Source: Pseudomonas sp. WJP1 (lineage in GTDB: Bacteria; Pseudomonadota; Gammaproteobacteria; Pseudomonadales; Pseudomonadaceae). Taken from it: a stretch of 64,000 bases of DNA. The stretch's first letter is position 1. Every line of letters starts with the position of its first letter. Under the pieces are notes generated by a model that was given only the letters and a program-made list of their open reading frames with translations, searched no databases and was not told the DNA's origin. A program made the translations under genes and the position numbers. Below, one piece after another: positions 41,309-54,644 of the stretch. The stretch covers positions 2,034,501 through 2,098,500 of the forward strand of contig NZ_CP110128.1 of the NCBI RefSeq assembly GCF_028471945.1, written 5' to 3'.

Positions 41309-42376
41309 TCACTGCGGACGGACGCCGTCAAAAGCGTCTTGCAGCAACTGACGGATTGCCGTTGCTTCGATAGGCCGCGGATTCCAGTAAGGGTTGGACA
41401 GTGCGATGTCAGTGGCGCGATCCAGATCCGCCTCGGTCAAGCCAAGATCCTTGAGCCGGGTCGGTGCACCCAGCGAACTGGAAAGATCGAACAGCGCAGC
41501 AGCGGGGCTGCAATCATCCACGTTCAGCGCCCGGCTGATGCGCGACAGTGCCGGCGCGGCGGGCTGGTTGTAGGCGATGGCGTGGGGCAGCACGATGGTG
41601 TGGGTTTGTGCATGGGGCAAATTGAAGCTGCCGCCCAGGGTGTGGCACAGTTTGTGGTGAAGTGCCATGCCGACGTTGCCCAGTACCGTGCCGCATAGCC
41701 AGGCGCCGTACAGGCAATCGCCGCGGGCATCCAGGTCAGACGGGGCTTGGCTGATTTTCTTCATGCCTTCGGCCAGTGCGCGGATGCCTTCTTCGGCCAT
41801 CAGCGACATGACCGGGTTGCCATCCTGGGCATACAAGCCTTCAGCGGCGTGGGCGATGGCGTTCATTCCGCTGGTGATGGACATGTCCAGGGGCAGGCTG
41901 ACGCTGAGCTCAGGGTCATAGATCACGGTTTTGGGCAGTACGCGTGGGTCTTTGCCGGTGCGCTTGAGGCCGTTTTCGGTCAGGCCGAATACCGGTGTCA
42001 TTTCGGAGCCGGCGTAGGTGGTCGGGATCGCCAGGATCGGCAGGCCCGAGTCCATGGCGATGGCCTTGCCCAAACCGGTGGTCGAGCCACCGCCAATGGC
42101 TACCGCACAATCGGCACCCAGTTTGCGCGCGACTTCGCGAGCCTCGCGGGCGGTTTCGATGGGCACATGCATGACGGCCTTGTCGAAAATTTCCGCGGCA
42201 CGACTGCCGAGCAATTGCGCGATGTGCTCAGCCTGGGAACGCTGCTCCGGGGTGCACAGCACCAGTGCCCGTTTGGCGCCCAACCGATCGATTTCCGCTT
42301 CCAGTTGTTGCAGCGAGCCCTTGCCGAAAATGACGCGCGACGGTTGGCCGTTATAGATGAAGGGTAGGGTGGACAT
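41309..42376 (-). CDS. maleylacetate reductase
   Basis: Iron-containing-alcohol-dehydrogenase family member of 355 residues, matching maleylacetate reductases: FIYNGQPSRVIFGKGS at the start, AVAIGGGSTTGLGKAIA for NAD(P) binding, IPTTYAGSEMTPVFGLTENG, and HHKLCHTLGGSFNLPHAQTHTIVLPH. Reduces maleylacetate to 3-oxoadipate in the cytoplasm, the step after hydroxyquinol ring cleavage. Third gene of a minus-strand operon (intradiol-like, NTF2-like, this gene). Its substrate would come from the intact dioxygenase encoded at 46340. Confidence 0.93.
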   Translation of the reverse strand: MSTLPFIYNGQPSRVIFGKGSLQQLEAEIDRLGAKRALVLCTPEQRSQAEHIAQLLGSRAAEIFDKAVMHVPIETAREAREVARKLGADCAVAIGGGSTTGLGKAIAMDSGLPILAIPTTYAGSEMTPVFGLTENGLKRTGKDPRVLPKTVIYDPELSVSLPLDMSITSGMNAIAHAAEGLYAQDGNPVMSLMAEEGIRALAEGMKKISQAPSDLDARGDCLYGAWLCGTVLGNVGMALHHKLCHTLGGSFNLPHAQTHTIVLPHAIAYNQPAAPALSRISRALNVDDCSPAAALFDLSSSLGAPTRLKDLGLTEADLDRATDIALSNPYWNPRPIEATAIRQLLQDAFDGVRPQ

Positions 42377-42397
42377 GGGGCGGTTCTCCGGGGGCAG

Positions 42398-42784
42398 TTA
42401 AAGCGCTGAAGGTTTGGCCATGGGCGTGGGCTGATAAGCGAAAAATTGCCATTGCAGGCCGTTTTTGACCCAGACCGTCAGCGTGCGGTTGTGAATGGTT
42501 TTGGCGACGCCATGGGACGTGATGTCGGCTGACATTTCTCCAAAGACGAGGGCGGTATCGCCTGAGCACCGAACGTGATGAACCCGGTGGTCGATGCGGT
42601 GATAGACGTAGAGACCGTCTCGGCATTTGCCCAGGTAGCTGCTCAAACTGTCCTGGACGCCGTTGGAGTGGACGTAGGTCAACTGCGGGTGGGACAGCCT
42701 CTCAAAGGCTGGCAAGTCACCTTGGCGCATGGCCAGGTAACGTTGCGCCTCAAGTTCCTTGATGACCGTGCTGTCGTTATTCAT
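42398..42784 (-). CDS. NTF2-like/DUF4440 protein
   Basis: Small protein of 128 residues with the SnoaL/NTF2-type cone fold: LEAQRYLAMRQGDLPAFERLSHPQLTYVHSNG at the N terminus, then YHRIDHRVHHVRCSGDTALVFGEM and a final WQFFAYQPTP strand. Such proteins act as small hydrolases, isomerases or binding subunits; some sit with aromatic-ring pathways. Its start overlaps the upstream dioxygenase-like gene by 8 bp, so the two are translationally coupled. Function not determined from sequence. Confidence 0.82.
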   Translation of the reverse strand: MNNDSTVIKELEAQRYLAMRQGDLPAFERLSHPQLTYVHSNGVQDSLSSYLGKCRDGLYVYHRIDHRVHHVRCSGDTALVFGEMSADITSHGVAKTIHNRTLTVWVKNGLQWQFFAYQPTPMAKPSAL

Positions 42785-53118: not shown

Positions 53119-54305
53119 GCGAAGTCAGCGTACCTCTCACATCCAAACCAACGGCGCTCACGTCAATCAAGCGTGGCGCTCGGGAATACGGTCTTCTGGC
53201 CTCGTTGATCGTCATCATGGTTTTCTTCCAGGTGGCCACCGGCGGGGCGCTGATGCAGCCGCTCAACCTGACCAACCTGTTGTTGCAGAACAGCTACATC
53301 GTGGTCATGGCGCTGGGCATGTTAATGGTGATCGTCTGCGGTCACATCGATCTGTCGGTCGGTTCGGTGGTCGGCGTGATCGGAGCGATTGCCGCCGTGC
53401 TGATGGTCCAGTATCGAATGGACTTCTTCACCGTCACGATCATCTGCCTGGCCACCGGCGCGCTGATTGGTGCGGCGCAGGGCTATTGGGTCGCGGTCTG
53501 GGGCATGCCGTCTTTCATTGTCACCCTGGCCGGCATGCTGATCTTTCGTGGCGCGACCATCGCGATCTCCCAGGGGCAGTCGATCGGTCCGTTCCCGCCG
53601 GCTTTCTCGGCGATCAGCTCGGGTTTTATCCCGGACATCTTCGCCAATGAACACCTGCGTATTACCTCGCTGTTGGTGGGCATTGCCGTCGCCGCCGCGT
53701 TCTGGGTGGTCGAATACCGTAGTCGCAGGCGTACGCTCAAGAGCGGCGGCAACGTCGCCCCCATGGCCCTGTTCGCGCTGAAGAATGGCGTGATCACGGC
53801 ACTCATCGTGTACTTCTGCTACCTGCTCTCGACGTATCGCGGCATCCCCACGGTGCTGGTGATCATGAGCGTGTTGATCGGCGTGTACACCTTCATCATG
53901 AACCGTACCGTGATCGGTCGCTGGATCTACGCCGTGGGTGGCAATTTGAAAGCCGCCAAGTTGTCGGGGATCAACACGTCGCGGGTGACCTTCTTTGCCT
54001 TCGTCAACATGGGCGTGCTTGCAGCAGTGGCGGGTCTGATTTTCGTCGCCCGGCTCAACAGCGCCACACCACGCGGGGGCTCCGGCTTCGAACTGGATGT
54101 GATCGCGGCGGTGTTCATCGGGGGCGCCTCGGCGTCTGGCGGGGTTGGCAAGGTCGTCGGCGTGGTGATCGGCGCCTTCATCATGGGTGTACTCAACAAC
54201 GGCATGTCGATCATGGGCATCGGTATCGACTATCAGCAGATGATCAAGGGCGCCGTGTTGCTGGCGGCGGTATTTGTGGATGTTTATCAGAAGAGCAAGG
54301 TTTGA
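53115..54305 (+). CDS. sugar ABC transporter permease
   Basis: Inner-membrane permease of 396 residues of the RbsC/MglC/GguB type. GTG start overlaps the ATPase stop by 4 bp. Visible: MVIVCGHIDLSVGSVVG, the coupling segment GMPSFIVTLAGMLIFRGA, the VGGNLKAAKLSGI loop and VIAAVFIGGASASGGVGKVVG near the end. It has 10 or more membrane helices. A longer cytoplasmic linker of ~50 residues around 53700 resembles GguB/MmsB. Confidence 0.94.
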   Translation: MSEVSVPLTSKPTALTSIKRGAREYGLLASLIVIMVFFQVATGGALMQPLNLTNLLLQNSYIVVMALGMLMVIVCGHIDLSVGSVVGVIGAIAAVLMVQYRMDFFTVTIICLATGALIGAAQGYWVAVWGMPSFIVTLAGMLIFRGATIAISQGQSIGPFPPAFSAISSGFIPDIFANEHLRITSLLVGIAVAAAFWVVEYRSRRRTLKSGGNVAPMALFALKNGVITALIVYFCYLLSTYRGIPTVLVIMSVLIGVYTFIMNRTVIGRWIYAVGGNLKAAKLSGINTSRVTFFAFVNMGVLAAVAGLIFVARLNSATPRGGSGFELDVIAAVFIGGASASGGVGKVVGVVIGAFIMGVLNNGMSIMGIGIDYQQMIKGAVLLAAVFVDVYQKSKV

Positions 54306-54341
54306 AATGGCAGGCATGACCGACACTGCAAGGGGAGCGCG

Positions 54342-54644
54342 ATGATCAAGCACATCGTAATGTGGAAAGTGGAGGGCAAGACGGCCGAGGAACACAAGCA
54401 GGCCTGCCTGTTCCTCAAGGAGCGTTTCGAAGGACTTGCCGGGCTGATTCCCGGGCTTCTGAAAATCGAGGTGGGTGTGGATTTCAGTCGTATCGACTAT
54501 GCGTGCGATGTGGTGCTCTACAGTGAATTCGATTCCCGGGAAGCCCTGGACGCCTACGCTTCCCATCCCGAGCATCTGCGGGTGAAAGGGGAGTTGGGGA
54601 ACTCACGTATTGCGCGGCATCAGGTTGATTACCGGTCTTCGTAG
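54342..54644 (+). CDS. Dabb (stress-responsive alpha/beta barrel) protein
   Basis: Small protein of 100 residues with the ferredoxin-like dimeric barrel: IKHIVMWKV at the start with His, LFLKERFEGLAGLIPGLLKIEVG, and SREALDAYASHPEHLRV. The family includes stress proteins and small cyclases/isomerases of polyketide-like rings. Being last in the cluster (37 bp after the permease), it may act on a ring intermediate. Its stop is 14 bp from the convergent TetR gene. Confidence 0.88.
   Translation: MIKHIVMWKVEGKTAEEHKQACLFLKERFEGLAGLIPGLLKIEVGVDFSRIDYACDVVLYSEFDSREALDAYASHPEHLRVKGELGNSRIARHQVDYRSS

Follow-up and report, generated by a model that had tools for sequence, protein, structure and literature searches.

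Why should genes for the uptake and oxidation of sugar-like molecules lie beside genes for the cleavage of an aromatic ring? The question is raised by a locus in Pseudomonas sp. WJP1 (NZ_CP110128.1), which was analysed within a window of 64,000 nucleotides, the whole stretch of DNA studied, whose positions are used throughout. Nine genes follow one another on the plus strand (44828 to 54644, with intergenic gaps of -4 to 107 bp), and a divergent minus-strand unit comprises three genes, for MacA, a DUF4440/SnoaL-like protein and DiOx2 (Table 1). The nine-gene run, the LysR gene and the maleylacetate reductase gene listed in a preliminary description of the locus are all present, in the order given there. 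Our reading, to which we assign a probability of about 0.58, is that this block would import a cyclitol, likely a quercitol or another deoxy-cyclitol, and convert it to hydroxyquinol; ring cleavage and a reduction would then lead on to 3-oxoadipate.

Table 1. Genes of the block, by position in the window
Feature	Position	Strand	Basis of assignment
MacA, predicted maleylacetate reductase	41309..42376	-	3jzd, 3hl0 and 3w5s matches; Fe-ADH Pfam domains
DUF4440/SnoaL-like small protein	42398..42784	-	PF14534, 51.8 bits
DiOx2, intradiol-dioxygenase paralogue without iron site	42777..43622	-	Ligand check, 3/4 lost
LysR regulator, between both units	43796..44710	+	PF00126 and PF03466
MFS sugar porter	44828..46261	+	TIGR00879, 342.8 bits (cut-off 237.8)
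HQDO, predicted hydroxyquinol 1,2-dioxygenase	46343..47236	+	Solved relatives; iron ligands Y167, Y202, H226, H228
TIM barrel, putative keto-cyclitol dehydratase	47280..48161	+	PF01261
IolG/OxiD-type NAD-dependent cyclitol dehydrogenase (by family)	48231..49226	+	TIGR04380; 3euw match
Gfo2, OxiC-type Gfo/Idh protein	49270..50364	+	Incomplete GxGxxG; Val at catalytic Asp
ChvE-type sugar-binding protein of ABC importer	50472..51542	+	NF040907, 463.9 bits (cut-off 460)
ABC importer ATPase	51580..53118	+	PF00005
ABC importer permease	53115..54305	+	PF02653
Dabb protein, putative second dehydratase/aromatase	54342..54644	+	PF07876

A promoter and terminator scan, uninformative overall, returned no sigma-70-like promoter and a terminator count not above that of shuffled sequences. 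No inverted repeats of at least 10 bases were found around the LysR gene (43600 to 44850).

The ring-cleavage half

HQDO keeps all four iron ligands, in agreement with its earlier description as intact. Its solved relatives are 6-chlorohydroxyquinol dioxygenase (8r2x, 316 bits), PnpC (3n9t, 261 bits) and a hydroxyquinol dioxygenase (1tmx, 236 bits), and catechol dioxygenases score at most 151 bits, below these hydroxyquinol-type enzymes. HQDO is a hydroxyquinol 1,2-dioxygenase by family, with the corresponding activity predicted. The top solved relative of MacA (3jzd, 545 bits) was deposited under the generic name iron-containing alcohol dehydrogenase; the named maleylacetate reductases 3hl0 and 3w5s follow with 420 and 409 bits, and MacA is a predicted maleylacetate reductase that would form 3-oxoadipate from maleylacetate. 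Purifying selection on HQDO and MacA is strong (dN/dS 0.03-0.10), as it is on the remaining enzymes encoded here.

We take 8r2x, 3n9t, 1tmx and 3w5s to come from the hydroxyquinol pathways of resorcinol, nitrophenol and chlorophenol degradation. These pathways share the pairing of a hydroxyquinol dioxygenase with a maleylacetate reductase; they differ in that monooxygenases make the hydroxyquinol from aromatics, whereas no monooxygenase family exceeded its Pfam cut-off in the block.

The minus-strand paralogue DiOx2 has lost three of the four iron ligands and is nevertheless retained; its dN/dS of 0.10-0.26 led us to reject the idea that it is a pseudogene. The neighbouring DUF4440/SnoaL protein evolves fast.

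The predicted cyclitol-side enzymes and uptake

IolG exceeds the cut-off of the inositol 2-dehydrogenase model TIGR04380 (396.7 bits against 355), the only one of five hits at 1e-30 in its own genome to do so. Conserved in all 33 aligned sequences are the GxGxxG motif, here GAGRIG, and the catalytic triad, with its Lys in EKP and its Asp and His in RDMTIH (RDMAIH in locus L048). The best solved relative, 3euw (332 bits), is OxiD of Corynebacterium glutamicum (PMC9603128). By family, IolG is probably an NAD-dependent cyclitol dehydrogenase, the substrate being predicted.

Gfo2 carries GVACLGITHPH or GIACLGITHPH, an incomplete motif, at the GxGxxG position and Val at the position of the catalytic Asp, both in 37 of 37 sequences, the window's included. 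It is 35% identical to an OxiC-like protein of Corynebacterium suranareeae, which has the same motif and Ile at the Asp site, as published for OxiC (PMC9603128). Gfo2 thus has the features of OxiC, namely the incomplete motif, the missing Asp and adjoining genes for a TIM barrel and an OxiD-type enzyme. It may carry out a second oxidation or set stereochemistry.

The nearest solved relatives of the TIM barrel are Lmo2234, IolI and a QuiC-type protein; IolI and QuiC-type proteins are enzymes of cyclic polyhydroxy-ketones. The Dabb protein has the fold and the Tyr/His spacing of olivetolic acid cyclase, with positions of the catalytic kind present. Pfam scans of the block contained no IolB, IolC or IolD-type domain; an IolD is encoded about 420 kb away in the same genome (962 bits, cut-off 715).

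The MFS sugar porter family also includes inositol porters, and the ChvE-type binding protein lies barely above its cut-off. Across lineages the importers vary while the enzymes stay, the binding protein being either ChvE-like at 64-98% identity or a different one at 25-30%.

The two halves are linked across proteobacteria

By the preliminary description, neighbourhoods in which the aromatic and sugar halves are rarely linked would refute its reading; the opposite was found. Among 397 Pseudomonas genomes, 16 encode the TIM barrel, and in 14 of these an HQDO homologue (E 1e-60) lies within about 6 kb of a TIM-barrel gene, compared with an HQDO homologue anywhere in 30 of the 381 genomes that lack the TIM barrel. 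This linkage is beyond chance, with a Fisher p of 5e-13 that is too low, the genomes being related. Gfo2 (E 1e-100) occurs in 12 of the 397 genomes, all among the 16 and at most about 7 kb from the TIM-barrel gene. In two genomes (G094 and G385) the TIM barrel is present and no HQDO homologue was found at 1e-60; in another (G009) the best TIM-barrel copy has an internal stop.

The full core of TIM barrel, IolG, Gfo2, Dabb, MacA and dioxygenase is found in 27 of the 79 loci examined. Where the TIM barrel is at least 68% identical, all 16 loci have the dioxygenase, Gfo2, IolG, Dabb and the ABC ATPase, and 12 have MacA; of the four without it, L029 and L033 reach a contig end and L036 and L037 do not. 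At 50-68% identity, 26 of 28 loci have MacA or the dioxygenase. Below 44% none of 28 does, and four of them show weak, partial HQDO matches (27-33%) under the counting threshold; the TIM barrel also occurs without MacA or dioxygenase in L063, L071-L073 and L074-L076. The two halves lie together in members of the alpha-, beta- and gammaproteobacteria, although the order of the genes varies, and L051-L054 form a minimal operon (LysR, binding protein, ATPase, permease, HQDO, TIM barrel, IolG, Gfo2, Dabb and MacA) with no space for extra genes.

Two groups depart from this set. Five loci of the Burkholderia group (L057, L058, L065-L067) combine the TIM barrel with MacA, dioxygenase and Dabb and have no IolG or Gfo2 orthologues; the one scanned, L057, has a different Gfo/Idh protein and an SDR. 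The sphingomonad loci L068 and L070 have the TIM barrel, MacA and HQDO without IolG, Gfo2 and Dabb, and L068 is flanked by FAD-monooxygenase-type, epoxide-hydrolase-type and SDR genes. The TIM barrel may thus serve a different route in the sphingomonad loci.

A similar gene set in Corynebacterium glutamicum

The preliminary description knew of no pathway with this exact gene set. Nearly the same set is in fact found in the iol2 region of C. glutamicum and the operon next to it; what holds is that, in the accessible parts of the two reports, its genes were studied piecemeal, as inositol genes in one and aromatic genes in the other, and not joined as one pathway (PMC9603128; PMC7764795). The operon oxiC-cg3390-oxiD-oxiE includes, between oxiC and oxiD, a putative sugar phosphate isomerase gene (cg3390); OxiC lacks the full GxGxxG motif and Asp179 and is thought by the authors to be inactive as an inositol dehydrogenase, and the substrates of OxiD include myo- and D-chiro-inositol (PMC9603128). 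Genes induced by myo-inositol fall mostly into two clusters, which we take to be iol1 and iol2. For growth on myo-inositol iolD is essential and iol2 dispensable, so iol2 is no bypass of iolD in this organism (PMC9603128). In the second report, IhtR is the repressor of iolT2-rhcM2D2; among its three effectors 1,2,4-trihydroxybenzene acts at the lowest concentration, the others being hydroquinone and indole, and inositol has hardly any effect, while RhcM2 and RhcD2 are linked to resorcinol catabolism (PMC7764795).

By these reports, both window and iol2 region have an OxiD-type dehydrogenase, an OxiC-type Gfo/Idh protein without the full motif and catalytic Asp, a sugar-isomerase-like gene, a sugar or inositol porter, a maleylacetate reductase and an intradiol dioxygenase. 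We likened cg3390, RhcD2 and RhcM2 to the window proteins by their published descriptions, and the adjacency of iolT2-rhcM2-rhcD2 to iol2 follows partly from locus numbers. C. glutamicum differs in its IclR-type repressor, where the window has LysR, in an additional scyllo-inositol dehydrogenase (OxiE), and in that the accessible text mentions no ABC importer, which the window has.

Among 394 actinobacterial genomes, one has a Gfo2 relative at 1e-35. This OxiC-like gene clusters with KduI/IolB, PfkB-kinase and Cgl0159-type genes, an iol-like arrangement; the window's HQDO, MacA and TIM barrel had no match there at 1e-4, so this cluster does not show the full set.

A predicted route from cyclitol to 3-oxoadipate

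In the pathway that we propose from gene content and family assignments, a cyclitol would enter through the MFS porter and through the ABC importer with its ChvE-type binding protein, and the IolG/OxiD-type enzyme would use NAD to turn one hydroxyl of the ring into a ketone. The TIM barrel, with IolI and a QuiC-type protein among its nearest solved relatives, would then remove water beta to the ketone. A second dehydration, either spontaneous or aided by Dabb, whose fold and Tyr/His spacing match olivetolic acid cyclase, would yield 1,2,4-trihydroxybenzene. HQDO is predicted to open the ring and MacA to reduce the maleylacetate.

By atom balance, hydroxyquinol is reached from a cyclohexanepentol (quercitol) with a single net oxidation and the loss of two waters, from a cyclohexanetetrol with two net oxidations and the loss of one water, and from an inositol with no net oxidation and the loss of three. 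Our best guess is a deoxy-cyclitol such as proto-quercitol, because IolD is encoded elsewhere in the window's genome and iol2 is dispensable on myo-inositol in C. glutamicum (PMC9603128). One point speaks against quercitol: two dehydrogenases are not needed, yet the block has IolG and Gfo2.

That point would be met by a redox-neutral route from inositol, which we consider unlikely and which survives best among the alternatives. Here oxidation and dehydration to trihydroxycyclohexanedione would be followed by reduction to a deoxy-inosose by Gfo2 and two further dehydrations to hydroxyquinol, with a net loss of three waters; the atom balance closes without net oxidation, both Gfo/Idh proteins get a job, and the model score of IolG, the OxiD substrates and the myo-inositol-induced clusters agree with it. 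The route wants three dehydrations where two candidate enzymes are available, the IolD of this genome means that the classical iol route is probably present, and the iolD and iol2 phenotypes of C. glutamicum count against it.

Of the two readings in the preliminary description, the aromatisation of a cyclitol gained from the IolG score, the relatives of the TIM barrel and the presence of the set in distant proteobacteria. The other, in which the TIM barrel would release hydroxyquinol by cleaving the 3-keto form of an oxidised hydroxyquinol glycoside, came out weaker and appears improbable: glycosidase and DUF6379 domains are absent from the Pfam scans of the block, no sugar-half gene was recognised, the binding protein is of the ChvE type, IolG is an inositol-dehydrogenase equivalog, and the TIM barrel is closest to Lmo2234, IolI and a QuiC-type protein. 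In the C-glycoside deglycosidases DgpBC and CarBC a DUF6379 small subunit accompanies a TIM barrel, and the lack of this domain in the same scans led us to reject that identity; the absence of such an enzyme from the 50 entries of the TIM barrel's VIA-align list excludes nothing.

No more credit goes to a detoxification or shunt role, in which ring cleavage would clear hydroxyquinol or a quinone arising from accidental dehydration of keto-cyclitols while most cyclitol carbon exits elsewhere. Keto-cyclitols can aromatise chemically, as in the conversion of 2-deoxy-scyllo-inosose to hydroxyquinol, and the genome of the window encodes an IolD elsewhere; against this, the minimal operons have their own importer and no second recognised carbon route, and HQDO and MacA are as constrained as the other enzymes. 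That two unrelated catabolic units merely lie side by side is very improbable, since the linkage is repeated in three proteobacterial classes in shuffled order and, by the published accounts, in C. glutamicum (PMC9603128; PMC7764795), even though the MacA unit is divergent in the window and a dioxygenase and Dabb unit stands apart from the dehydrogenase and importer unit in L036-L040.

Relation to known pathways and implications

The predicted cyclitol route has a counterpart in principle in the quinate/shikimate pathway, where a carbocyclic polyol is oxidised, a PF01261 TIM barrel (QuiC) dehydrates the product to protocatechuate, and intradiol cleavage leads to 3-oxoadipate. Common to both are polyol oxidation, PF01261 dehydration to an aromatic, intradiol cleavage and 3-oxoadipate; the quinate/shikimate pathway differs in its carboxylated substrate, its dehydrogenase families and its protocatechuate 3,4-dioxygenase. 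Quinate and shikimate were rejected as substrates here, since the TIM barrel fails the cut-off of the NCBIfam model for QuiC (3-dehydroshikimate dehydratase; 58.9 against 1200, with the match confined to the N-terminal portion) and no decarboxylase was recognised. The classical iol pathway resembles the block in its IolG-type first step and in TIM-barrel enzymes of one superfamily, but proceeds by non-aromatic ring hydrolysis. Rhizopine moc genes likewise provide a Gfo/Idh protein, a TIM barrel and a sugar-type binding protein, there for a cyclitol amine; they have no aromatic half.

We see an even chance that two bacterial phyla share a new route, an "aromatising cyclitol catabolism" that would turn quercitol and similar deoxy-cyclitols into hydroxyquinol and pass this on to aromatic ring cleavage. 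A cyclitol-to-hydroxyquinol route was not found in the open literature searched, which is weak evidence as few subscription journals were covered, and no quercitol-breakdown genes were named in this limited open literature. If the proposal is correct, sugar-like plant polyols would be degraded as aromatics, their carbon reaching the 3-oxoadipate pathway through its hydroxyquinol branch; functions would be found for oxiC and cg3390, both orphan genes of a model organism; and it would be clear why iol2 lies beside genes for a maleylacetate reductase and a dioxygenase that are controlled by a repressor sensing trihydroxybenzene. Renewable cyclitols could also be converted biologically to trihydroxybenzene.

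Such a pathway may matter for tree- and leaf-dwelling bacteria. Quercitol occurs in oak and eucalypt, and relatives of the TIM barrel and Gfo2 are found at the protein level in Xanthomonas arboricola. Carriers of the locus include P. amygdali (L033), P. viridiflava (L035), P. daroniae (L036) and P. dryadis (L037), the last two of which presumably originate from oak.

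The gene block

Within the 7.0 Mb, single-contig source genome, which its relatives place in Pseudomonas, a plus-strand run comprises a LysR gene followed by nine genes with intergenic gaps among the nine of -4 to 107 bp, and three further genes lie on the minus strand. All were assigned by domain and family scans. The joining of sugar-type and hydroxyquinol genes in this nine-gene set, pointed out in the preliminary description, is real. The next unit holds genes for TetR, a TauD-type dioxygenase, a class II aldolase and a D-2-hydroxyacid dehydrogenase, and we found no evidence that this unit belongs to the cyclitol pathway. 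Inverted repeats, possibly REP-like elements, lie between a hydrolase gene and MacA.

Features of the block and its surroundings, in window coordinates
Feature	Position	Strand
Inverted repeats	40942-41258	
Maleylacetate reductase (MacA)	41309-42376	-
DUF4440 protein		-
Dioxygenase paralogue (DiOx2)	42777-43622	-
LysR regulator		+
MFS sugar porter		+
Hydroxyquinol 1,2-dioxygenase (HQDO)	46343-47236	+
PF01261 TIM barrel (TIM)	47280-48161	+
IolG	48231-49226	+
Second Gfo/Idh protein (Gfo2)	49270-50364	+
ChvE-type binding protein		+
ATPase		+
Permease		+
Dabb protein	54342-54644	+
TetR/TauD/aldolase/dehydrogenase unit	54659-58226	

Linkage of the sugar-type and aromatic halves

The preliminary description had proposed that the operon aromatises a cyclitol to hydroxyquinol or frees hydroxyquinol from a glycoside. 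The cyclitol reading is well supported as a linkage: when named genomes were scanned by profile, relatives of TIM turned up at 79 loci (best 80 of 106 matches), and 27 of these loci carry the complete core of TIM, IolG, Gfo2, Dabb, MacA and a dioxygenase, two of the 27 being places on one contig. The complete core occurs in Pseudomonas, Azospirillum, Rhizobium, Rhodobacteraceae, Sphaerotilus and others, and in L051-L054 the regulator, importer and six enzymes form one uninterrupted run. Within the same best 80 of 106, loci with TIM identity of at least 68% all have the dioxygenase, Gfo2, IolG, Dabb and ABC ATPase (16/16), and 12 of the 16 have MacA. At 50-68% identity (28 loci) the counts are MacA 23, dioxygenase 25, Gfo2 20, IolG 16 and Dabb 25; MacA and dioxygenase occur together in two of seven loci at 44-50% and in none of 28 below 44%.

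Across 397 Pseudomonas genomes, TIM is found in 16 (E 1e-40) and Gfo2 in 12 (E 1e-100), always within about 7 kb of TIM (hypergeometric p = 7e-20, too small because the genomes are related). Window-type HQDO (at least 86% identity) is present in nine genomes, each time beside TIM. Of the 16 TIM-positive genomes, 14 have a dioxygenase homologue (E 1e-60) no more than about 6 kb from TIM; of the 381 TIM-negative ones, 30 have such a homologue anywhere (Fisher p = 5e-13, likewise too small given relatedness). In the TIM-positive genomes G094 and G385, HQDO homologues are absent at 1e-60. G009 has an internal stop in its best TIM copy, as does G276 in one of its two.

Several loci speak against the cyclitol route. 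Five of the Burkholderia group (L057, L058, L065-L067) have TIM, MacA, dioxygenase and Dabb without IolG or Gfo2 orthologues; L057, the one scanned, carries a different Gfo/Idh gene together with SDR, FMN reductase, amidohydrolase and BKACE genes, the last possibly for 3-oxoadipate cleavage. The sphingomonad loci L068 and L070 (Novosphingobium, Sphingomonas) retain TIM, MacA and HQDO without the rest of the set, and in L068 FAD-binding monooxygenase-type, SDR and epoxide-hydrolase-type genes adjoin the trio, which may thus be fed by another upstream route. L063 and L071-L076 have TIM and lack both MacA and dioxygenase. A further point against the cyclitol route is that Gfo2 has no step in the proposed scheme, and we hold the mechanism with moderate confidence.

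The predicted pathway would be a new form of the hydroaromatic principle seen in the quinate route, with inositol-type enzymes and the hydroxyquinol branch as its parts.

Among individual loci, L061 and L062 (P. frederiksbergensis NZ_MOBM01000038.1) occupy two far-apart places on one contig with identical gene order and identities, a duplication or an assembly artefact. L036, L037 and L040 have a second TIM-barrel-family gene near the block (Pfam check in L037 only), and in L069 (Paraburkholderia rhynchosiae) a full-length HQDO copy has next to it a match limited to query residues 30-156.

An experimental relative in Corynebacterium glutamicum

Cg3388/IhtR is described as the repressor of the divergent iolT2-rhcM2-rhcD2 genes (inositol porter, maleylacetate reductase, intradiol dioxygenase), which its authors view in the light of resorcinol (PMC7764795). 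In that account, IhtR DNA binding is disturbed by 1,2,4-trihydroxybenzene above 0.05 mM, hydroquinone above 0.5 mM and indole above 4 mM and hardly affected by 5 mM inositol, and rhcM2 RNA with inositol or resorcinol resembles that with indole. By locus number, ihtR adjoins the operon cg3389-cg3392 (oxiC-cg3390-oxiD-oxiE), in which cg3390 is a putative sugar phosphate isomerase and OxiD an NAD-dependent dehydrogenase of myo- and D-chiro-inositol (PMC9603128). The closest relative of the block with experimental data thus combines a repressor responsive to the proposed product with a cyclitol-accepting dehydrogenase. OxiC, as characterised there, lacks a full GxGxxG motif, the catalytic Asp and a known function (PMC9603128); Gfo2 shares both sequence peculiarities in 37 of 37 sequences, and the window copy shares 35% identity with a C. 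suranareeae OxiC-like protein that has Ile at the Asp site. In an actinobacterial locus (L172), an OxiC-like gene belongs to an iol-type cluster that also includes KduI/IolB, PfkB kinase, Cgl0159-type, aldehyde dehydrogenase and SnoaL-like genes.

The proposed substrate

By atom balance, hydroxyquinol would arise from a cyclohexanepentol by one oxidation and two dehydrations, from a cyclohexanetetrol by two oxidations and one dehydration, and from an inositol by three dehydrations and no oxidation. (+)-proto-Quercitol is 2-deoxy-D-chiro-inositol, and 2-deoxy-scyllo-inosose dehydrates chemically to 1,2,4-benzenetriol. IolD is encoded elsewhere in the window genome. In C. glutamicum, myo-inositol-induced genes reportedly fall mostly into two clusters, which we read as iol1 and iol2, and growth on myo-inositol requires iolD and dispenses with iol2 (PMC9603128); these genetics speak against iol2 serving as a myo-inositol route. 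Because of the atom balance, the separate IolD, the iol2 genetics and the acceptance of D-chiro-inositol by OxiD, we favour, with low confidence as to the exact compound, a deoxy-cyclitol such as quercitol, a cyclitol of oak and eucalypt (review PMC8919412); an inositol or tetrol is a possible alternative.

A probable metal-less dioxygenase paralogue

The window DiOx2, a paralogue of the intradiol dioxygenase type, lacks three of four iron ligands. At least two are missing in all ten fetched loci that also bear HQDO, and all four are kept in the 17 of 17 where DiOx2 is the sole dioxygenase. By simple counting, with dS near or beyond saturation in many pairs, dN/dS is 0.10-0.26 for ligand-less DiOx2 copies versus 0.05-0.10 for HQDO. 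Judged from sequence, DiOx2 looks like a retained metal-less paralogue rather than a decaying pseudogene, perhaps acting as a partner or sensor.
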